Source: a virus. Taken from it: a stretch of DNA of 27,824 bases. Below, piece by piece: positions 4,256-14,862 of this stretch (position 1 is the stretch's first letter; each line of letters starts with the position of its first letter). The position numbers and the translations under genes are program-made. The stretch is taken from positions 1-27,824 of IMG/VR virus record IMGVR_UViG_3300046536_000184. The stretch is one strand, 5' to 3'. Below the pieces are notes generated by a model that was not told where the DNA came from, did not search any database, and worked only from the letters and a program-made list of their open reading frames with translations.

Positions 4256-4324
4256 GACGACGGTACACCTGGCGCATTCCGGCGCAGTGGTTGCTGCGCC
4301 GGATCGTCACCAAAGGAGACGATG

Positions 4325-4822
4325 ATGCCGGAAGAGGATCTGAGCCCGTATCCGAGCCAGGCGGAACTCAACGAGATGGTGCTGGCCGCCGTCCTGACGG
4401 CGCCGCTGGGGGAGCCGAGGATCGTCGCACGCGACGGCGACGACCTCACCCCGGTGATGACCCAGGCACAAAATGATTTCGCCATGCTGGTCGCCTGCGG
4501 CCCGCCGCCGGAGTCGCTGCCGCCGATCAACATCGACGTTCCCAGCGTGCAGCCGCAGAGTGCTGCGCCCGGTGAAACGCTCACCTGCACGATGGGAAAC
4601 TGGACCGGCGAGCCGACCGCTTACGCCTACCAATGGCTGAGCGACGGCGAGAGCGAGCTTGGCACCGGCGACAGCTATACCGTGGTCGCGAGCGACAGCG
4701 GCACCAGCATCAGTTGCGTCGTCACCGCGACGAACGCCAATGGCTCGACCGCGGCGCCGCCATCGAATGCGGTCGCGGTGAATGGCAATGGCGCCACCCG
4801 CGGCCGCAGCCGCCGTGGCTGA
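4325..4822 (+). CDS. Ig-like domain protein, probable capsid decoration
   Basis: The 165-residue product has an unrecognised acidic N-terminal part (about 1-63) and a C-terminal Ig-like fold of about 90 residues. That domain shows the typical pattern of a cysteine strand in GETLTCTMGNW, the tryptophan strand YAYQWLSDG, a GDSYTVVASDSGTSISC strand and VTATNANGST. Such domains decorate phage heads and tails and are thought to bind surface sugars weakly. Its place between capsid and portal favours a head decoration role, as in Hoc-type proteins; this is inference. AGGAG at 4314-4318 is 6 bases from the ATG at 4325 and only 3 from the ATG at 4322, so I prefer 4325. The end overlaps the portal gene by up to 41 bases. 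Confidence 0.7.
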   Translation: MPEEDLSPYPSQAELNEMVLAAVLTAPLGEPRIVARDGDDLTPVMTQAQNDFAMLVACGPPPESLPPINIDVPSVQPQSAAPGETLTCTMGNWTGEPTAYAYQWLSDGESELGTGDSYTVVASDSGTSISCVVTATNANGSTAAPPSNAVAVNGNGATRGRSRRG

Positions 4823-6242
4823 ATCGACGGCGCTGGCGCGGGTGCTGTCGGCCGCCGGCCGCATCCTCCGCCCGCGCGCCAAGCAGCAGATCGGCAACGG
4901 CTACCTGCTGCCGCTCGGCGGCGGCATCATCCCCACCGACTGGCCGCTGAATTACTGGCAACTCGGCTATAACCCGCTGCCGGCCGGCGGCGGCGCGATC
5001 GTCTATGCCTGTGTCGCGGCCTATTCCCAAACGACGGCAATGTGTCCCGGCACGCACTGGCGCTCGACCGGCGATGGCGGCCGCGAGCGGGTGGCGAATT
5101 CGGCGCTCTCGCGCATCCTCAAGCGGCCGAACAGCTATCAGTCGATCAGCGACTTCCTGCTCAACCTCACCGGCGCGCTTTACGACACCGGCAACGCTTA
5201 TGCGTTGGCGCTGCGCAACAACCGCTACGAGGTCAGCGAGCTGCACCTGATGGATTCGCGGATCTCGGCACCGCACGTCGCGGTCGATGGCAGCGTCTAT
5301 TACAACGTCGCCGGCAACCCGATGGTCGAGGCCAGCATCCCGCACGATGCGCTGACCGCGGTTCCGGCGCGCGACGTGCTGCACATCCGGCTCGATACCC
5401 GCAACATGCGCTACCGGCCGCTGATCGGCGAGCCGCCGCTGGTCAACGCAATGACCGACATCGCCGCCTCGAATGCGATGGTGCAGCAGGCATTGGCCTT
5501 CACGGCCAACCAGGCGCGCCCGAGCGGGGTGCTGACGACCCCTGACCTCTTTGACGAAGCGCAGGTCGCCGCGACGCGGGCGCGCTGGGAAGAGGTCACC
5601 AGCGGCGCCGGCGCCGGCCGCACGCCGATCCTCACCGGCGGCCTCAAATGGGAGCAGACCGCAACCACCAGCCGCGACGCGCAACTCGCCGAAATGCTCC
5701 AGATCACCGACGGCCGTATCGCCTCGGTCTATCGCATACCGCTGGAGCTGCTCAGCTTGTTCACCGCCGGTGCGCCGCCCAAGGCCGCCTCGACCGAAAA
5801 CCTCATGCGCTTCTGGATCGCCTCGGGGCTCGGCTTCTGCCTCAACCATATCGAGGAAGCGGTCGGCAATTTCTTCGGCCTCGGCGGTTGGCCGGACGAA
5901 TACCTCGAACTCGACACCGCGGCGCTGGAGCGCAGCAACCTGAAAGACCGCATCGCGGCGCTGGCGCAAGGTGTCCAAGGCGGCATCTTCTCACCCAACG
6001 AGGCGCGCCGCCTGGAAGACCTGCCCGAGGCGGAAGACGGCGACGAGCCCAGGGTGCAGCAGCAGGTCGTGCCGCTCAGCGCCTGGTCGGCGACGCCGCC
6101 CGCGACCTCGGCGCCCGCCTCTGCACCGGCCGCACCGCCCGAGGATTCGCCTTCCGCAGACTCCGGGGATGTGCCGAATGCCAACCAGTTCGCCGCCAGC
6201 ATCCTGCGCGCCGCCAATGACCACAGCCGAACTCTTCACTGA
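4782..6242 (+). CDS. Phage portal protein, HK97 family
   Basis: Forms the ring at the special capsid vertex through which DNA enters and leaves, and on which the connector and tail are built. The 486-residue product carries HK97/SPP1-type portal features: [12 protein letters not shown] (about 110-121), a [16 protein letters not shown] segment (about 127-142), LHLMDSRIS (about 149-157), the [14 protein letters not shown] region (about 207-220), and a late [10 protein letters not shown]-like stretch. The C-terminus (about 425-486) is rich in Ala and Pro and is probably disordered. The start is uncertain: ATG 4782, ATG 4788 and GTG 4815 are all in frame and none has a strong Shine-Dalgarno site. 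It sits after the capsid gene, the reverse of the usual HK97 order. Confidence 0.9.
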
Positions 6243-6900
6243 CGGCTGGGCCGATGCGCTCGGCCAGGTGCTCGCCACCGAGCGCCGCGAGTGGCAACGC
6301 GAGCGCGAACTCGCCAGCGCCGAGCACCGCCGCATCGTCGCCGAGCTGCAAGCCGAGGTCGCCCAAATCAAGCTGCACCTGTTCGAGACGCTGCAGCAGA
6401 AACTTGCCGCTTTGCAGAATGGCCCGCCGGGGCCGCCAGGCGAGGCTGGAGCGCGGGGAGAGCCGGGGGAGGCTATCACGGGGCCGCCGGGGGAACAGGG
6501 CATCCCTGGGCCTCCTGGCGCGCCCGGTGAGGTCGGGCCGCCTGGGGAGAGGGGCGCCGACGCGCCGGTCGGCGAAGTTTGCGGGCTTTTTGACCGTGAA
6601 CGCGCGTACCGCAAGTTTGATCTCGTCACCTTCCACGGCTCGGAATGGCGGGCCCGGTGCGACGATCCGGGGGCGCTGCCCGGCGATGGCTGGGCGTTGT
6701 CGGGCCAGGTCGGTGGCCGTGGCAAGGCAGGAGAGCGGGGTGAGCGCGGACCCGCGGGGCCAGCCGCGCCGAGGCACGTCGATTGGGCTATTCAGGAATA
6801 CCGCGCCGCACCGATCTGGAGCGACGGATCGACCGGCCCGGTGCTCGACCTACGGTCCCTCTTCGAACTTTTCCATGGCGAGTCCAGCGGCCGGCGATGA
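6217..6900 (+). CDS. Collagen-like protein with N-terminal coiled coil
   Basis: The 227-residue product has three parts. A charged helix at about 15-67 ([15 protein letters not shown] and onward) is a probable trimeric coiled coil. A Gly-X-Y stretch at about 69-112 is almost all GPP, GEP, GEQ and GER triplets with one break near AIT, and a shorter one sits at about 167-183. Between and after them is a folded region with a CBM-like strand ([17 protein letters not shown], about 131-147) and PGDGWALSG. Such proteins occur in phages of alphaproteobacteria and likely form trimeric rods on the virion. The start is the ATG at 6217, overlapping the portal end by 26 bases; a longer frame to 5971 would run deep inside the portal gene. 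The Gly-X-Y stretch uses more GGG and CCT codons than its neighbours. Confidence 0.75.
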
Positions 6901-7523
6901 GAGCGCTCTTCACTACCGTCACCGTCCCGGCGTTGGTGCGCAGCCTTATCACCCTCGACGATCTGCGCGAGCAGCTGCGCATCAAGCCCAACGACACCGC
7001 CAACGACGGCTGGATGACCAAGGTCATCGCGCGCACCAGCACGCAGGCCGAGCAATACTGCAATCGGATCTTTGCCGTACAGACCTACGCCGAGACCTAC
7101 CGCGGCGGCGTCACCGGGCGGGACGGTGAGCCGCTCATTCTCGCCCAGGCGCCGGTCGACCCGGCGACGATCGCCATCACCATCGACGGTGCCGCGCTCG
7201 ATCCTGCCAACGATCTGGCGCTCGACCAGGATGCCGGCCTTGTTTACAGGATCACCACCCCGTACCTCTGGCAAAGCTCGACCTCGCTGGTGGTGACCTA
7301 CACCGCCGGCTTTGCCGAGATCCCCTACGACGTGCAGCAGGCGGTACTTGATCTCTGCACGATGGATAATGCCGGCCGCGGCCGCGACCCTATGCTGCGG
7401 GCTCAGGAATCCCCGGGACTTGGCCGCCAGGAGTTCTGGGTTGGTGGCATGCCCGGCGGCGCCACCATCCCGCAGGACATCGCGGGCGTGCTCGACGGTT
7501 ATCGGCGAGGACTCATCGGATGA
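6897..7523 (+). CDS. Head-tail connector protein, gp6-like
   Basis: The 208-residue product matches the pattern of HK97 gp6/gp15-type connector proteins, which dock below the portal and close the head. It has an early helical region ([19 protein letters not shown] and a helix with [12 protein letters not shown]), a central beta part ([19 protein letters not shown] and VVTYTAGF), and a helical end after [13 protein letters not shown]. The typical YTAGFxxIP-xx-V-x-A motif is clear at about 137-149. It starts with ATG overlapping the collagen-like gene's stop by 4 bases and stops in an overlap with the next gene, so it is part of the coupled head-completion block. The C-terminal tail [19 protein letters not shown] is typical of the group. 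Confidence 0.82.
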
Positions 7524-7990
7524 TGGCGCCGGTCTTCACCACCGAGGTCGACGACAGGCACATCAAGCTGATGTTCGATCGGTTGCCGATGGCGCTGAAG
7601 ACCAACCTGCGTGTCACAATCACCAGTCTAGTCAACGAATTGCTCGCCAAGGTCCGCGCCACCGAGCCGCATCGGACTGGCCGGCTGAATGCGGAGACGC
7701 GGAGTTTTGTCGACGAGCGCGAGAACGCCATCCTCGGTCGGGTGCGAATCCTCGGGCCGAGCGGTCGCGGCCACAACGTCGCCGCCGCTGCGCTTGAATA
7801 TGGCGCGCACCGGGGCTTTCCGGTGAAGGCTTACGAACGGCGCGGCGGCGTCGGCGTCAGGGGATACCGGCGGCAGGCCAACATTGCTGAACGACGCTTC
7901 CTGCGTGGCCCCGCGGAGGAGATGCGCGCCAAGATACTCGCTGAGCTTCAGCAGGCGGTCGACAAATCGCTGGCGGAAGTGCAGCGATGA
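7520..7990 (+). CDS. HK97 gp10-family neck or tail-completion protein
   Basis: The 156-residue product has the mark of the HK97 gp10 family, the ALEYGAH motif at about 92-98 after a TEPHRTGRL strand (about 49-57). These proteins act at the head-tail joint, where they help the tail attach and finish assembly. The first 45 residues are a helix with FDRLPMALKTNLRVTI, and the C-terminal 50 form a basic helix rich in Arg, Glu and Lys. Two ATGs (7520, 7523) are possible and both overlap the previous stop. The 3' end overlaps the tail-terminator ATG at 7987. Order and overlaps put it in the expected connector series. Confidence 0.8.
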   Translation: MMAPVFTTEVDDRHIKLMFDRLPMALKTNLRVTITSLVNELLAKVRATEPHRTGRLNAETRSFVDERENAILGRVRILGPSGRGHNVAAAALEYGAHRGFPVKAYERRGGVGVRGYRRQANIAERRFLRGPAEEMRAKILAELQQAVDKSLAEVQR

Positions 7991-8634
7991 ACCGCGAAAT
8001 TATCATGGGCGCGCTGTTCAGCAAGCTGACCTCGCCGCCGCTTGTCTACAACTTCACCGCCGACACCACGACCGGCGATATCGGGCTCGTCAATGTCAGC
8101 GATACGACCGGCCTCATGGTCGGCATGCCGGTGATCGGCGACGGACTGCCGGCGGATGCCACGATCGTGACGATCACCCCAGCGGTGACGATATCCCTGC
8201 CGGCCATCGCCGACCGCACCGCGTCTGCCTTAACACAAGGGTTTCAGACCGTGACACGGCGCCTGGCGGATCCCACCGCAGAACAGGACATGCCTGCGCT
8301 TTACCTTGTCGAGATCAGCGAGATGCACCCGCCGCGCGGCTCGAACGAGCCGGCGCTGATCGAACTGCACTGCGAAGCCTGGGTATATACGCGGGTCGGT
8401 GCTGATCAGAACGCCATCCCGGCTGCAACGCTCAATACCCTAATCGATGGCATCGAGACGGCGCTCTACCCGACCCCGACCGGCTTCCGGCAAAACCTCG
8501 GCGTCAACGGCGTGATGTATTGCCGGATAGAGGGCGAAGTTCAGAAAGACCCAGGCCACAACGGGCAGATTGCCGGCGCCGTGATCCCGCTGAAACTGGT
8601 TGTCGGCCAAAGCTCCGAAACCTACCTGCTCTAG
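7987..8634 (+). CDS. Tail terminator protein with an inserted domain
   Basis: Likely caps the tail tube at the head side and stops its growth. The parts that look like tail terminators are the N-terminal helix (EIIMGALFSKL, about 4-14) and the region from about 86 onward: TVTRRLADPTAEQDMPALYL, then EPALIELHCEAWVYTR, and NTLIDGIETALYP. Typical family members run straight from the first helix to the RRL strand. Here about 65 residues are inserted (roughly 20-85), carrying a beta-rich piece with TTGLMVGMPVIGDGLP and ATIVTITPAVTISL. That piece resembles segments of the hub protein at 12061. The ATG at 7987 overlaps the previous stop. The terminator call is inferred from context and sequence pattern, without a search. 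Confidence 0.7.
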   Translation: MNREIIMGALFSKLTSPPLVYNFTADTTTGDIGLVNVSDTTGLMVGMPVIGDGLPADATIVTITPAVTISLPAIADRTASALTQGFQTVTRRLADPTAEQDMPALYLVEISEMHPPRGSNEPALIELHCEAWVYTRVGADQNAIPAATLNTLIDGIETALYPTPTGFRQNLGVNGVMYCRIEGEVQKDPGHNGQIAGAVIPLKLVVGQSSETYLL

Positions 8635-8639
8635 GAGGA
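8633..8639 (+). promoter_or_regulatory. Very strong Shine-Dalgarno for the tail tube gene
   Basis: AGGAGGA overlaps the previous stop codon and lies 7 bases before the ATG at 8647. It is one of the best ribosome binding sites in the late operon, which fits a gene whose product is needed in many copies per tail. Confidence 0.65.
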
Positions 8640-8646
8640 ACAACCG

Positions 8647-9207
8647 ATGCAAGGAAGAGATACAGCCACACCGCTCGCCGCAACGCCGGGCACGCTCAAT
8701 GTGCTCGCTGCCAACCAACTCATCGGCAAAGTAAAATTTGTCGGTGCCAACGCCATAGGGCCGCAAATCACGATGGAACTCACCAACGTGATGTTCAGGC
8801 CGGCGAATATCGCCTACGGCATGATCCAGGACGAATGGGGGCAGCTCCAGGTCACCGGCGAAGTGCTGGTCGATCCCGTCACCGGCTTCTTTGGCACGAT
8901 CACACATCCCGATACGACGCTAACCTCGCCGCTGACAACGCTCTATTACATCGGCAAGGGCATCGTCTCAGTGCAGATTTTACAGGGGATCACGCCGCCT
9001 GACAGCGCCTACCGCGATGTCGGCAATGTGCCGGTGTTCGAGTTCACGCCCAACATCACTGTGCTGAGCCACTACAGCTCCAGGCTCGGCATCCGGTCCA
9101 AAGATTTGGAAGTAATCCACGAGAAACAGGCGACGCTGAACATGCATATGGACGAGTTCAGCTTTAAAAATCTCCAGTTGGCGTTTATGGCGACGGTCGG
9201 CCCCTGA
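8647..9207 (+). CDS. Major tail tube protein
   Basis: Likely the ring subunit that stacks to form the tail tube. The 186-residue product has an N-terminal strand region (KVKFVGANAIGPQITME), a long middle of beta strands, and an end typical of tube proteins: VLSHYSSRLGIRSKDL followed by a hairpin strand ATLNMHMDEFSFKN and a short final helix. Position between terminator and chaperone genes, a very strong ribosome binding site, and length all fit. It ends with TGATG, overlapping the next start by 1 base. The family call rests on this pattern and on gene order. Confidence 0.8.
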   Translation: MQGRDTATPLAATPGTLNVLAANQLIGKVKFVGANAIGPQITMELTNVMFRPANIAYGMIQDEWGQLQVTGEVLVDPVTGFFGTITHPDTTLTSPLTTLYYIGKGIVSVQILQGITPPDSAYRDVGNVPVFEFTPNITVLSHYSSRLGIRSKDLEVIHEKQATLNMHMDEFSFKNLQLAFMATVGP

Positions 9208-9668
9208 TGGTTTCGCTGGTCGACATCGTCCCGCAAAAGCGCAGCGTCACCATCGCCGCCGGCGATCTGGAGCTGCGCGGTCTTGGCCTGCGGCAGATAG
9301 CCTATTTGTTTCTGCAATTCCCCAGCCTGCGAAACGTCTTTACCCAGAACGCGCCCGAGGTCGACATCGCTGAGCTGATCACCCAGGCGCCCGACGCGGT
9401 CGGCACCATCATTGCCGAGGCGGCGGATCAACCCGAGGCCGCGGGAGCCATTGCCGATGGCAGCCTGCTCACGCCAGACGAGGTGCTCGACTGCCTGACG
9501 GCGGTCCGCGACCTTACCTTCCCGCGAGGTCTGAACCCTTTATTGGAACGCCTGGCCGGGTTCGTCGCACTCGGCCCGGCGCTCGGCCAATCTGGCGGGG
9601 ATCAGGCTATGAGTGCGCCGAGGGAGCAGAGCAGCTTATCGCCGCCGGTCATGATCGCCGCGGAGTAA
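9207..9668 (+). CDS. Tail assembly chaperone, first frame (G-like)
   Basis: The 153-residue product sits exactly where siphoviruses encode the chaperone that loads the tape measure protein during tail assembly. It has an N-terminal beta segment (SLVDIVPQKRSVTIAAGDLELRG cut to its visible pattern as a beta start), then RGLGLRQIAYLFLQFPSL and a helical body with LTPDEVLDCLTAV and LNPLLERLAGFVAL. The last 30 or so residues are low in structure and rich in Ser, Pro and Gln. A second frame, shifted by -1, continues at least from about 9600 to 9820 with good protein character, so a -1 frameshift fusion is likely, as in lambda G/GT. A CCCTTTA heptamer in the correct phase lies at 9536-9542. Confidence 0.75.
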   Translation: MVSLVDIVPQKRSVTIAAGDLELRGLGLRQIAYLFLQFPSLRNVFTQNAPEVDIAELITQAPDAVGTIIAEAADQPEAAGAIADGSLLTPDEVLDCLTAVRDLTFPRGLNPLLERLAGFVALGPALGQSGGDQAMSAPREQSSLSPPVMIAAE

Positions 9669-9820
9669 TGGAGATGACCCCGCGGGAATTGCAGGCATTC
9701 CTGTTTATCGCGCAGCGCCGCCGGCAACGCGAACTCAGCGAAGAATTGCACCTGAACACCCTTGCCGCTCGTGCCGACGAAAAGGCGATCCGCGCGCAAC
9801 TGAAGGAATGGGAGAAATAA
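9668..9820 (+). CDS. Tail assembly chaperone, second frame (T-like)
   Basis: A 50-residue frame opens at an ATG that overlaps the first-frame TAA (TAATG). It reads MEMTPRELQAFLFIAQRRR, then a charged helix with LHLNTLAARADEKAIRAQLK. The TPRELQAFL start and the LAARAD patch are typical of the downstream half of rhizobial tail chaperones. The same frame stays open upstream and, from about 9611, gives YECAEGAEQLIAAGHDRRG, which also looks like real protein. It may therefore be made both as a separate product from the ATG and as the C-terminal half of a -1 frameshift fusion with the preceding gene. Its stop is followed at once by the tape measure start. Confidence 0.66.
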   Translation: MEMTPRELQAFLFIAQRRRQRELSEELHLNTLAARADEKAIRAQLKEWEK

Positions 9821-11602
9821 TTGGTTCAGTCGAGCGGCGCCAATAATCTCACCATTGGCATTGGCGTTGACAGCTCCAAGCTGCCCGGTGAACTGGCGCG
9901 CGCTACTGCGATTTACCGCGACTGGCTGCGGCAGCTTAACGCTGCGGCGAAGCAAGAAATGTCGGCGGGCCGCACGCCTCTTGTTGACCAGCTATCGGCA
10001 GGAGCGGCAGCGGCGGCCGCCCAAATCGCCAAGCTAAAGCAGCAGCAACGCGATCTGCGCCAGGAGTCGAGCGAAGGCGCCACCAAGCTCACTGGGGATT
10101 TCAAGAGCCTGGCCAGTGGAATCGCGACGATTGTCGAAAGCTGGAAAGCCGTGCGGTTCGGGATCGCCGGTGCGGTGATTTTCGAAGCCATCAGGAAAAT
10201 CGGCGAGGCGGTGACGGATGTCACGAACAAGGTGACCCAGCTCAACAAGATAGCCGCGGCGACCGGCTTTGACACTTCGACGATCCAGGCTTTCGAGCAC
10301 ATTCTAAAGTCAACCGGGGGCGTCGCGGAGGATGCCGGCAAGATCCTGTTTGCCCTTAGTAGATCCTATGACGCCGCCCGCCTCGCGGCGGAACGTGCAG
10401 GACAGACGCTCGGCAGCGGGATGCAGATTCTGCGCGGCGGCGGGCCTGACCAGCAATCCGGCATGCAGGTCTTCAGGGGCGGCGAGCAGACGATGCGCCC
10501 TGGACCGCATATGGTCACAGTCCAGCGTGGCGCATCGGTTGTGGCGCCGCCCGAAATCAAAGACGCGACTTCTGCATACGACGCGCTCAACATCAAGGTC
10601 GCGCGGTACAACAATTCGCTGCAAGACCAGGACAAGCTGCTCGTCGATGTCGCCAAGGGACTCAAGGCATGGAAAGATGCCGGGCGTATCGATGTGGCAA
10701 CCGAGATCGGCACGCAACTGGTCGGCAAGAACTATCGCGAAATCGCCGCCGCGCTCGACGAGATCGCCAAGCCTGGCACCCTCGCGCGGATACGGGATCT
10801 GCAAAAGGCGACGGGGCAACTGATTAGCCCGGAAGACAAGAAGCTGGTCGACGACTACACCGAGGCGCATGAGGCGCTGACATCGCGAGCGGAGGGAGGC
10901 CAGACCCGCGGCGTGATGGGCGCGCTACCGGCCGTCACCGCGGCGGCGCAGAAGTCTGCCGACGCTCTGCAAGAGTTGAAGAAAACCCCACAAGAAATCG
11001 CCGACGCGTGGCAGCAGACCGGCGAGAGCATTACCGAAGGCTCGGACCGGGTCGTTGGCAATCTCAAACAGGCATGGGGTGATCTCGGCGCATGGTTCGA
11101 TAACCTCGGCGCCGGGATCGCCAATCGGTGGAATGCCCAGATGGGGACGATGGCAGCGCCGCCTGCCGGTGGTGGCGGCGGCGGCATTACCGGCGGCGAT
11201 AGCGCGCTCACCGAGGTGCCGTTCGGGATGGCTTCGGGCGGCTATGTGCGCGGACCTGGCAGCGGGACAAGCGACAGCATTGCCGCTAGGCTCTCTGCCG
11301 GCGAATTCGTTGTACGAGCGGCCGCGGTTCGCCGGCTCGGCCTTGGTTTCCTCTCCGGGCTCAACGGCTATGCCGCCGGCGGCCTCGTCGAGCGGCCGCC
11401 GTTGCGCTTCGCCGCCGGCGGCCTGGTGCCGTCCGCCGCTGGGGGCGGCCGTGCGGTGCATCTGCACCTCGGCGGCGGCTCCTTCGCGCTCTCAGGGCAC
11501 GGCAGCGTGGTCGATGCGTTGGTCAGCGCTGCGCACTCGCAGCAGATCCGCTCGGCCGGCGTCAAGCCGTCGTGGTTCGCGGCGCGTCCGGGCGGTCAAT
11601 GA
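9821..11602 (+). CDS. Tail tape measure protein
   Basis: Sets the length of the tail and is carried inside the tube. The 593-residue product begins with TTG directly after the previous TAA; GGAG at 9811-9814 is 6 bases upstream. It has helical N-terminal segments (about 25-90, with a Gln/Lys-rich coil), a hydrophobic segment at about 107-125 (ESWKAVRFGIAGAVIFEAI), a long helical middle, and a glycine-rich C-terminal end with GMASGGYVRGPGSGTSDSI, LSAGEFVV and AAGGL repeats, typical of rhizobial tape measures. It is short for the role, predicting a short tail of roughly 80-90 nm if the usual 1.5 angstrom per residue holds. A 14-residue near-repeat (SGMQILRGG, SGMQVFRGG) lies at about 199-221. 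Confidence 0.85.
   Translation: MVQSSGANNLTIGIGVDSSKLPGELARATAIYRDWLRQLNAAAKQEMSAGRTPLVDQLSAGAAAAAAQIAKLKQQQRDLRQESSEGATKLTGDFKSLASGIATIVESWKAVRFGIAGAVIFEAIRKIGEAVTDVTNKVTQLNKIAAATGFDTSTIQAFEHILKSTGGVAEDAGKILFALSRSYDAARLAAERAGQTLGSGMQILRGGGPDQQSGMQVFRGGEQTMRPGPHMVTVQRGASVVAPPEIKDATSAYDALNIKVARYNNSLQDQDKLLVDVAKGLKAWKDAGRIDVATEIGTQLVGKNYREIAAALDEIAKPGTLARIRDLQKATGQLISPEDKKLVDDYTEAHEALTSRAEGGQTRGVMGALPAVTAAAQKSADALQELKKTPQEIADAWQQTGESITEGSDRVVGNLKQAWGDLGAWFDNLGAGIANRWNAQMGTMAAPPAGGGGGGITGGDSALTEVPFGMASGGYVRGPGSGTSDSIAARLSAGEFVVRAAAVRRLGLGFLSGLNGYAAGGLVERPPLRFAAGGLVPSAAGGGRAVHLHLGGGSFALSGHGSVVDALVSAAHSQQIRSAGVKPSWFAARPGGQ
10415..10483 (+). repeat. Short in-frame near-duplication in tape measure gene
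   Basis: Codons for SGMQILRGG and SGMQVFRGG recur with a 14-residue period inside the tape measure gene. The two copies differ at several third positions, so the duplication is not very recent. The segment is glycine-rich and interrupts an otherwise helical region. Confidence 0.5.
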
Positions 11603-12060
11603 CGATCCCATACACGCAGCTCGATATCCGCTTCGATCTCTCTGCGGCGCCGCCCGGCGTCAATCCCTATTCCGCGCGTGGTCTGCGTGGCACGCTGGCG
11701 CCGATCGACCAGGCCAAGGGCGCCGACAAGCTGGCGCGCACCGTCAACGGCGGCCTCGTCGATCTCAGTGCGCCGCAGATGCGCAAATACCAGTTGACCA
11801 TCACCGGCAACGACCAGGCGCCACCCGCGCTCGACGGCTTGTGGGTCGGCATGGTCGTCGTCGTCAATTCGCTGGTCGAGATGGCGTACCTTACGGTTGG
11901 CGGCTCTGCTGGCAGACCGGCGGTTTCCGGCAGCGTCCGCACCGAGGACGCTTTCACCTACTACCGTCCGCAGTTCACCATGATGGTTGTCGACTCACAG
12001 ATCGAGCGCGAGGAATGGGAAGCCAACGTCCCGTGGTCGCTCTCGCTGGAAGAGATCTAG
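11599..12060 (+). CDS. Tail protein of unknown role, between tape measure and hub
   Basis: The 153-residue product starts at an ATG overlapping the tape measure stop by 4 bases and ends with TAG directly before the hub GTG. It reads as a mostly beta protein: YTQLDIRFDL, QLTITGNDQAPP, GLWVGMVVVVNSLVEM, AYLTVGG, then TYYRPQFTMMVV, and ends in WEANVPWSLSLEEI. In this place many siphoviruses have a distal tail or tip attachment protein. I recognise it as a repeated component of alphaproteobacterial phage tail clusters but cannot name a family. A tail-tip structural role is an inference from location only. Confidence 0.6.
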   Translation: MTIPYTQLDIRFDLSAAPPGVNPYSARGLRGTLAPIDQAKGADKLARTVNGGLVDLSAPQMRKYQLTITGNDQAPPALDGLWVGMVVVVNSLVEMAYLTVGGSAGRPAVSGSVRTEDAFTYYRPQFTMMVVDSQIEREEWEANVPWSLSLEEI

Positions 12061-14862
12061 GTGCCCGGCCCGATCTACTTCGCCTGGACTGGCGGCGCGA
12101 TCGTGGAGCAGCTCACCCTCGTCACCAACGGCACGACGCACGGCGTCTTGTTCGAGTTGGCGACGATTGTCGGCGACACCAACCCCGGCATCGCTCAGGT
12201 CATTAATGTCGCCAGCACCGACAACCTCCAGCAAGACGCCGGCTATCACGTCACCGGGCCGGGCCTCGACGCCTATTTTATTTACGACAACGCCACCACG
12301 CTGAGCGGCCTGCCGAATTCGCTAAATCTGACCTCCGCGCCGACATCGGGAGAGAGGTCGGGGGATTTCTCGACGACGAAAGCCGTGCCGATCGGGACCG
12401 TGCTCGGCACGGTGAGCCACGGCAGCAGCACGGTGGCGTTGGCCGCCGGCGATTTGCCGGCCGGGATCTACGGCATTCAAGGGATCGGTGTCGGCGAGAC
12501 CGACATTCCCATCGGCACCACCGATGGCACCTCACACACCACCGGCGGCGGGATAACGCTGATCGGCAGCGCCTATCTCAACTATGACGGCAGCGGGCAC
12601 GGCACGATGTACATCATCGCCGCGACCCCGCACACAAGCACGCGCATCGGCGACTTGCCACCACACCTGCTCGAGACGTTCACGACGTACAGCATCGCCT
12701 CTCAACCCGTCAGAGCCACGACCTCGGGCGAATTCCCGATGGTGATTAGCGGGTTCCCCGTCGAAGACCCGTTCAGCGTAACCGCTATCCCATCCGGCGC
12801 GCTGATGAGCCTCTCGCCGGGTCTCGTCTACAACATCACCGGCAACGGCATCCCGGTGGGCGCAACCTTCGTGGCGCCGAGCAGCGGCAGCTCGATCGAA
12901 CTCGACCTGGCTGCGACGGCGTCGGAGATCAATGCAATTCTGACGATCACTGGGCCACGCACGCCGACCGCGCCATTTGATCCCGCTGTCCATAACCGCT
13001 TTGACGAAGAGATCATCAGCTTTGACATCAGCCAGGACGAGGGCAGTTTTGCGACGCTTACCGCGCAGCTCAAAAATCCCGCCGTAGGCCTTCTGGCGCT
13101 CGGCAGATATCTCTGGTGCTGGTTGAGCTATGACCAGGCGTGGAACCCCGCCGGGAATACGCCGGATCTCGTGCCGCTCTTTAACGGGCGCCTGATCGGG
13201 GTGCCGAAGTTGCAAGCCGGCGAGATCGTCGAGCTCCAGTTCCTTGCCCGCCCGGACGACTTCAACGCCCAGAAACAGTCGTGGGCAACATCGCTGCAAG
13301 TGCCACCCTATTACGATCCGGTCTGGATCGCACGGCCGCCCAATCCCGACACGGTGCTAGAGACTTATTCCGCGTTGTGGCACATCGACCGCGTGAGCCT
13401 CGGGGTGTCGATCAGCGATATCCTCGACGGCGAGGACGGCATCATCGATATCGGCGAGGATATCTCCTTATATAACAATTTCAGCCTGTCCTATGGTCAG
13501 CCGCCTCTGGTCTCGACGATGGTGACCGGCACGGTCACCTGGGCGCAGCAGGCCGAAGGCAGGATCGACATTACCCAGCCGATCCTCAATGCGTTTAAGG
13601 ATCAGGGATCATATTACAAATGGGTCTTCCCGGTGACTTATTGGGGAACCGGCGGCGGCGGCCTCATCCAGACACTCTCCGGCAACGGTCTCAAATCGGA
13701 TTGGCCGAAGCCGGGAACAAGCATCGGCGGCGGCTGGTCGCTCAGCACGTTGCTCGACGGTGACGGCATCCCACTGTGCTACATCATCGATGCCGTCATG
13801 GACGGCCAGGTCAGCTACAACGTCACTTATGAAGCACAGACACCGCCAGCGAGCCAAGCGGGAAGCACGACCGAGCAAAGCAACGTCAATATATTTCTCC
13901 AGCCGACCAGCACCTTCGTCGCGCGCTTCCCGATGAACGTCTACAAGATTCGGATGGTGCTTGAGTACAGGGCAAATCGCAAACGCACCGAAGTCTTGAC
14001 GGCGGTAGTAACCGCGGGGGTTCAGCGCGAGCTATCCGATTCCGCCGAGAGCGACCACGAAACCATCAGCCTCAGTTCCGACTTTATCGATAAGGCCGTT
14101 GATCCTGACGGCAGCATACCGATCGGCAACGTCGCCTATCGCTCGTATTTCCAGACGGCCAGGGGCAATGTCTCGTTCGAGTACCTGCTGCTCGCAGCCA
14201 GGGCAAAGATGCGCGCCAGGGCACGGGCCGTCGACATTACCTTCGCGGTCCCCTGGCAGCAGGCTCTGGCGATTACGCTGCGGCACAACGTCCAGATCAG
14301 CGATCGCCGGCTGCCGGGCGGCGGCGCCCTCGGCAAGGTCAAGAGCTACAAGCTCAGTTGCGCCACCGGCGGCATCATGCTCGGGGAGTTCACCATCGGC
14401 TGCGCGATCGGCACCGGCGATCCGATCGCGCCACAAGCCGGGGTAAACTCATATGTCGAAGATGCCTATGTCGACGCCGGCTATCAGACGGTAACCGGGG
14501 CGCAGATCACGCTGAGTGAAACGGCAGACCTCGCCTATCAGACGCTCGACGACTTCGCCGTCATTGATGACGGCCTGGATCTCACGCGCCTGGTCGGAGC
14601 GCAGGCGGTGAACGAGTGCGTCGTCACCAACCTTTTTACCGAGCAATTGCCGGCGCTGCTTGCCTACAGCCAAACGACGACACCGACGAACGGCAATCCG
14701 CTCAAACTTATGGAGACCATGAAGACCACCGTCACGCTCGACCTAAAGCCGGTCCAGGGTTCTGAATTTTCAACGGCCTTCTTTCCGGCGGTGACGCCGC
14801 TGGTGTTGCCAAAGACGATCGATCTGTCCGCATCTACGCCGGGAGAACTGACCCATGCCTGA
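12061..14862 (+). CDS. Large tail hub or baseplate protein with N-terminal inserted modules
   Basis: The 933-residue product starts with GTG right after the previous TAG. It begins with PIYFAWTGG, then about 290 residues of beta-rich modules, and resumes with a part that looks like a tail hub: FDPAVHNRFDEEIISFDIS (about 306-324), LWCWLSYDQ (about 351-359), PLFNGRLIGVPKL, and ARPDDFNAQK with a PPYYDPVWI strand. The inserted part has about three related modules, with turns at about 64-75 (VTGPGLDAYFIY), 139-151 (IQGIGVGETDIPI) and 259-271 (ITGNGIPVGATFV). The rest (about 430-933) is an unrecognised mixture of beta and helical segments ending in a 3' overlap of 8 bases with the next gene. The hub call is based on placement and pattern, not a search. 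Confidence 0.62.
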   Translation: MPGPIYFAWTGGAIVEQLTLVTNGTTHGVLFELATIVGDTNPGIAQVINVASTDNLQQDAGYHVTGPGLDAYFIYDNATTLSGLPNSLNLTSAPTSGERSGDFSTTKAVPIGTVLGTVSHGSSTVALAAGDLPAGIYGIQGIGVGETDIPIGTTDGTSHTTGGGITLIGSAYLNYDGSGHGTMYIIAATPHTSTRIGDLPPHLLETFTTYSIASQPVRATTSGEFPMVISGFPVEDPFSVTAIPSGALMSLSPGLVYNITGNGIPVGATFVAPSSGSSIELDLAATASEINAILTITGPRTPTAPFDPAVHNRFDEEIISFDISQDEGSFATLTAQLKNPAVGLLALGRYLWCWLSYDQAWNPAGNTPDLVPLFNGRLIGVPKLQAGEIVELQFLARPDDFNAQKQSWATSLQVPPYYDPVWIARPPNPDTVLETYSALWHIDRVSLGVSISDILDGEDGIIDIGEDISLYNNFSLSYGQPPLVSTMVTGTVTWAQQAEGRIDITQPILNAFKDQGSYYKWVFPVTYWGTGGGGLIQTLSGNGLKSDWPKPGTSIGGGWSLSTLLDGDGIPLCYIIDAVMDGQVSYNVTYEAQTPPASQAGSTTEQSNVNIFLQPTSTFVARFPMNVYKIRMVLEYRANRKRTEVLTAVVTAGVQRELSDSAESDHETISLSSDFIDKAVDPDGSIPIGNVAYRSYFQTARGNVSFEYLLLAARAKMRARARAVDITFAVPWQQALAITLRHNVQISDRRLPGGGALGKVKSYKLSCATGGIMLGEFTIGCAIGTGDPIAPQAGVNSYVEDAYVDAGYQTVTGAQITLSETADLAYQTLDDFAVIDDGLDLTRLVGAQAVNECVVTNLFTEQLPALLAYSQTTTPTNGNPLKLMETMKTTVTLDLKPVQGSEFSTAFFPAVTPLVLPKTIDLSASTPGELTHA

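Follow-up and report, generated by a model that had tools for sequence, protein, structure and literature searches.

The window, a stretch of 27,824 nucleotides that covers positions 1 to 27,824 of the virus record IMGVR_UViG_3300046536_000184, contains a siphophage head-tail operon. The connector gene (start at 6783) lies upstream of the neck gene (start at 7520), which is followed by the tail terminator gene (7987..8634, plus strand, 215 aa) and, directly after it, by the gene for the major tail protein (MTP; 8647-9204, 186 aa). The terminator gene is thus found between the connector and neck genes and the MTP gene, as expected of a siphophage tail terminator. Further downstream, the tape measure gene is followed by an ORF of 162 aa and then by an ORF of 933 aa with a GTG start (12061..14862, plus strand), the putative tail hub/tip gene. 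Both genes for which an inserted beta-rich module had been predicted, the terminator gene and the putative hub gene, therefore lie where the original prediction had placed them. Two further ORFs should be noted: a 166-aa ORF (4322-4822), flanked by the capsid and portal genes, ends in an Ig/PKD-like domain, for which the PKD match (E 0.043) did not reach the cut-off, and a 309-aa ORF (5971-6900), the listed start of which falls within the final part of the portal ORF, encodes collagen-like GXY repeats.

The assignment of the terminator is based on a match to PHROG 8150, which covers residues 83-206 only, and on the core of the AF2 model, which has the helix, four-stranded sheet and second helix of this fold and resembles the terminators lambda gpU, T5 p142 and those of R4C and monocin (Foldseek probability 1.0). 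Module T (residues 20-88; 8044..8250, plus strand) interrupts the chain in the loop that connects the first helix to the strand FQTVTRRL, in good agreement with the predicted interruption at about residues 20-85. Terminator relatives were collected from 43 IMG/VR loci, and all close relatives have kept this segment. It is present in 56/56 ORFs of the module-type terminator family, and its mean identity is higher than that of the terminator core (73% versus 66%). The more distant terminator of Brevundimonas phage Strzyga, which has 154 aa and is 35% identical in its core, and the terminators of about 150 aa of many phages whose tails are otherwise similar have no module T. Module-type terminators are always paired with one connector type, with at least 54% identity to the connector of the window, versus at most 39% for connectors that lie beside other terminators. 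A separate observation is that the connector and terminator genes (6783-8634) form a cassette that is exchanged among phages with near-identical hubs; for example, locus L012 has a hub that is 96% identical, a connector that is 31% identical and a module-free terminator.

Only its place in the gene order underlies the designation of the 933-aa ORF as a hub. It had no match in Pfam, NCBIfam or the PDB, and PHROGs yielded a single weak family of unknown function. Its core is conserved across more than 50 IMG/VR loci, and relatives were collected from 57 loci; a search of genome contigs with the hub alignment yielded no relatives, so that no host could be assigned. The conserved part begins with the left anchor PGPIYFAW (12064..12087, plus strand), which is common to the zero-, one- and three-module versions, and resumes at the right anchor FDPAVHNRFDEEI (12976..13014, plus strand), which in zero-module hubs follows six residues after the FAW/FAY strand. 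Between these anchors lie three modules, all on the plus strand: H1 (residues 33-108; 12157..12384; module HMM domain E 2.4e-17), the divergent H2 (residues 109-196; 12385..12648), which was missed by the pooled module HMM and recognized by hhalign to H1 and H3, mainly over its first half, and H3 (residues 222-299; 12724..12957; module HMM domain E 2.4e-22). The turns that had been listed for the three modules have the sequences VTGPGLDAYFIY (residues 64-75), IQGIGVGETDIPI (139-151) and ITGNGIPVGATFV (259-271).

Within the hub family, some members have only 6 residues separating the motifs PGPxYFAW and FDPxxHxRxDE, others have 89-90, and the majority have about 240-300. In the shortest form the two anchors are joined directly by the six-residue linker, and the 90-residue form retains one H3-type copy (L049, L053, L055 and L076); the 272-residue insert of L039 was counted as multi-module. 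The use of insert-free relatives for locating the junctions, as had been proposed, was successful. These comparisons also bear on the reading that each segment is part of the core fold of its protein and that the likeness is merely outward, which would explain why all close terminator relatives have kept the segment. The existence of module-free terminators, both in Strzyga and among those of about 150 aa, and of hubs with only a six-residue linker makes this reading so improbable that it can practically be set aside.

The structure predictions that had been suggested as a check gave a clear picture for the hub, and not for the terminator. The AlphaFold2 model of the hub N-terminus has a mean pLDDT of 84, with values of about 90 in the modules, which are nearly all-beta with five to seven strands each. 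The strand order is identical in H1 (strands at residues 33-40, 46-48, 61-66, 69-74 and 98-107), H2 (109-118, 124-127, 135-141, 146-150, 161-167, 170-175 and 180-196) and H3 (223-231, 239-241, 256-261, 269-271, 279-281 and 288-298). The terminator module could not be modelled with confidence (pLDDT below 50, shallow alignment), probably owing to an alignment that was too uniform. A Foldseek search with the whole model of the hub N-terminus retrieved no confident PDB fold match, and an Ig beta-sandwich is a candidate fold only.

The module can be described as a beta-rich unit of about 65-80 residues, present in one copy in the terminator and in three copies in the putative hub, with the pattern strand, GSxxLxNV, GLxxGMxVxGxGIPxGTTIxxI, TLSxxATA and closing strand. 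No model in Pfam or NCBIfam covers it, no member matched any Pfam family, including the Ig-like ones, and no PHROG that was found is equivalent to it; only parts of large families of virion structural proteins match. Among PDB sequences, neocarzinostatin (E 0.025) and also MPT63 (E 0.026) gave matches too weak to be used.

The relationship of the four segments was quantified by hhalign of the segment alignments, with 78 control windows from other tail and head genes of the same phages and with column shuffles as references. T and H1 scored 28.3, compared with maxima of 17.9 for the control windows (n=78) and 18.9 for the shuffles (n=100). Within the hub, the scores were 35.9 for H1-H3, 32.7 for H1-H2 and 24.2 for H2-H3, and the control-window maxima for the comparisons of H2 with H1 and H3 were 15.2-18.8. 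Over all pairs, the highest scores were 18.8 for control windows and 22.5 for column shuffles. The prediction of about three related modules in the hub was thereby confirmed, with H2 as a divergent member. T versus H3 (14.2; 19.0 in reverse) and T versus H2 (9.6) did not by themselves reach significance.

When a hub-only module profile was run on a set of about 16,700 six-frame ORFs, it matched 30 terminator ORFs with E < 0.1, six of them below 1e-3; the best match (E 8.5e-5) was located at the module. The terminator of the window itself gave a weak match (E 0.26) and the significant matches were to its relatives, and thus the link to the hub depends on these relatives. Besides those terminators, a truncated terminator and the MTP of locus L060 (E 1.6e-7) were the only non-hub ORFs with E < 1e-3. 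A match of the hub profile to residues 111-181 of a 329-aa protein of L010 turned out to be a false positive upon inspection.

The segments are rich in Thr, Ala, Gly and Val and share a GxGIP-like turn, so that a chance or convergent likeness has to be considered, for which the biased composition and the lack of a direct match of T to H2 or H3 could be cited. This explanation is, however, very improbable: controls below 19 and shuffles below 23 stand against the scores for T-H1 and H1-H3, and the hub-only profile picked out terminator modules among all ORFs searched, with the L060 MTP as the sole outside match below 1e-3. The connection of T to the hub is supported by the T-H1 score, by the hub-only profiles that find terminators and by modules of third-party proteins that are matched by both profiles (see below). 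Judged from sequence profiles, T, H1, H2 and H3 are copies of one beta-rich module, and the profiles predict that the four segments share a fold.

The module is not confined to the terminator and the hub. The L060 MTP carries a copy in the linker that joins its two halves, and within this phage group the module therefore occurs in three core tail genes. A Foldseek search of viral models with the hub model, the matches of which were taken as leads only, pointed to the tail collar protein ATI15737.1 of Bordetella phage PHB04, and this lead was confirmed by sequence (module HMM E 1.2e-11): the module breaks the Pfam Collar domain of this protein into two stretches. A tblastn search that started from the PHB04 module retrieved Prochlorococcus phage P-RSP2, Arthrobacter phage Jinkies, Pseudomonas phage SCYZ1 and Synechococcus phages, and the T-only and hub-only profiles each match the same segments of PHB04, P-RSP2, Jinkies and Synechococcus phage S-PM2, the latter only marginally in the case of the T-only profile (E 0.029). 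Searches of annotated phages by tblastn yielded no matches with single modules of the window type (T, H3-like and L060) or with a module consensus. In P-RSP2, a 243-aa ORF (L105:2704-3435) matches only the first approximately 120 of the 793 positions of the tail protein family PHROG 457 and then carries the module, and the tail gene may be split at this site.

An observation in its own right concerns the MTP, which in the window is circularly permuted relative to the MTPs of related phages. Residues 101-181 match residues 14-89 of the L021 protein (44%, E 1e-15) and residues 16-76 match residues 105-164 (41%, E 2e-11), in swapped order. The order of the window is shared by most close relatives, and the other order is found in L021, L022, L028-L030, L032, L033, L048, L060, L062, L063 and L066. 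In L060 (L060:2236-3024), the extra module sits where the chain ends fall in the permuted MTP of the window. No report of such a circular permutation of an MTP was found in the literature searched.

Taken together, virion proteins that are not homologous share the module, and each of them has relatives without it. The domain shuffling that had been proposed from the window is supported by module-free relatives of both genes and by the occurrence of the module in the L060 MTP and in fibre and virion proteins of unrelated phages. It is very probable that a self-contained module has been shuffled among different tail proteins by insertion into their loops. The terminator would have received a single insertion between the first helix and the first core strand, the hub would carry an array of three modules within a hairpin loop close to its N-terminus, and the modules would protrude from the tail as accessory domains.

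On a tree of the hub core, which is a quick tree with some long branches, the number of modules requires 4 changes and the terminator type 13. The one-module hub arose at least two times within three-module clades, and because this form is nested twice, H1 and H2 were most simply lost together on two occasions. The terminator type combines with every hub class and assorts independently of the number of hub modules; terminators with and without the module number 8 and 5 for zero-module hubs, 2 and 2 for one-module hubs, and 11 and 24 for multi-module hubs.

What the modules do may not be the same in both proteins. Decoration of the tail surface, as originally proposed, we only infer. The hub copies vary in number, as expected of decorations. 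H1 and H2 (mean identities across relatives 45% and 41%; H3, 60%) are much more variable than module T. An array that would face outward at the tail tip and make weak contacts with the cell surface is preferred for the hub, in view of its position, the variable copy number and the use of the module in a tail-collar protein, although we would give such an adhesive role slightly less than an even chance. The terminator copy is fixed, and its high conservation does not fit loose decoration. For this reason, we would place it close to the ring interface or the neck.

One might propose that the terminator module, and perhaps also the hub array, stabilizes subunit contacts or the neck instead of decorating the surface. 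The module interrupts the loop that follows helix 1, and the loop at residues 22-29 of T5 p142, taken as equivalent, belongs to the subunit interface (PMC11784142). In the R4C terminator, an insertion domain is found at this interface (PMC10276861), and the beta-sandwich inserted into the YSD1 MTP (domain2) packs against the adjacent subunit (PMC8718954). The higher conservation of T than of the core and the tie to one connector type point in the same direction. However, sister phages with otherwise similar tails have module-free terminators, the connector linkage may be mere gene neighbourhood, and the varying number of hub modules would be left unexplained, so that a stabilizing role in place of decoration appears possible at about one chance in three. 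For the terminator copy considered by itself, a structural role is as likely as decoration, given its identity values, its presence in all ORFs of the family and the complete connector linkage. A combination, in which one family has two mechanical jobs, namely locking the terminator ring or neck with a matching connector and forming a tip array of variable length at the hub, is conceivable, and we regard it as unlikely. The natural series of zero, one and three copies in one hub offers ready comparisons for the function of add-on domains.

Accessory beta-domains that are shuffled among phage structural proteins are already known (PMC10276861, PMC10684548, PMC6949934), and within the limited literature searched the module is an unnamed family of this kind. 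The significance lies in the identification of a portable beta-module in a terminator, a putative hub, an MTP and, in unrelated phages, tail-collar or other virion structural proteins. Ig-like accessory domains (Big_2, I-set and FN3), such as the C-terminal domain of lambda gpV and those of T5 pb6 and SPP1 gp17.1* (PMC8718954, PMC10276861), are likewise small beta domains that are shuffled among structural proteins as add-ons to a conserved core of virion proteins, where they are sometimes dispensable. Unlike them, the module has no Pfam match and only a candidate Ig fold, and its insertion sites are loops, one of them in the terminator.

Insertions into tail proteins, one of them into a terminator, are exemplified by domain2 of the YSD1 MTP, the insertion in the R4C terminator and the Dit insertions of R4C and RcGTA (PMC8718954, PMC10276861), and the inserted beta-sandwich of YSD1 stabilizes the tail tube ring (PMC8718954). 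These were not reported there as one family that recurs in several proteins of one phage, and the module has no sequence match or confident fold match in the PDB. The BACON repeats in tail proteins of crAss-like phages are, like the module, tandem small domains that evolve by duplication or transfer (PMC6949934), but they belong to another sequence family, as the module has no Pfam match, and the module resides in three core tail genes of this phage group. Further counterparts are the proteins of PHB04 (ATI15737.1), P-RSP2, Jinkies and S-PM2, which share the module by sequence although the carrier proteins and the phages are unrelated to this tail, and in ATI15737.1 the module is again an insertion, in this case inside a Collar domain.
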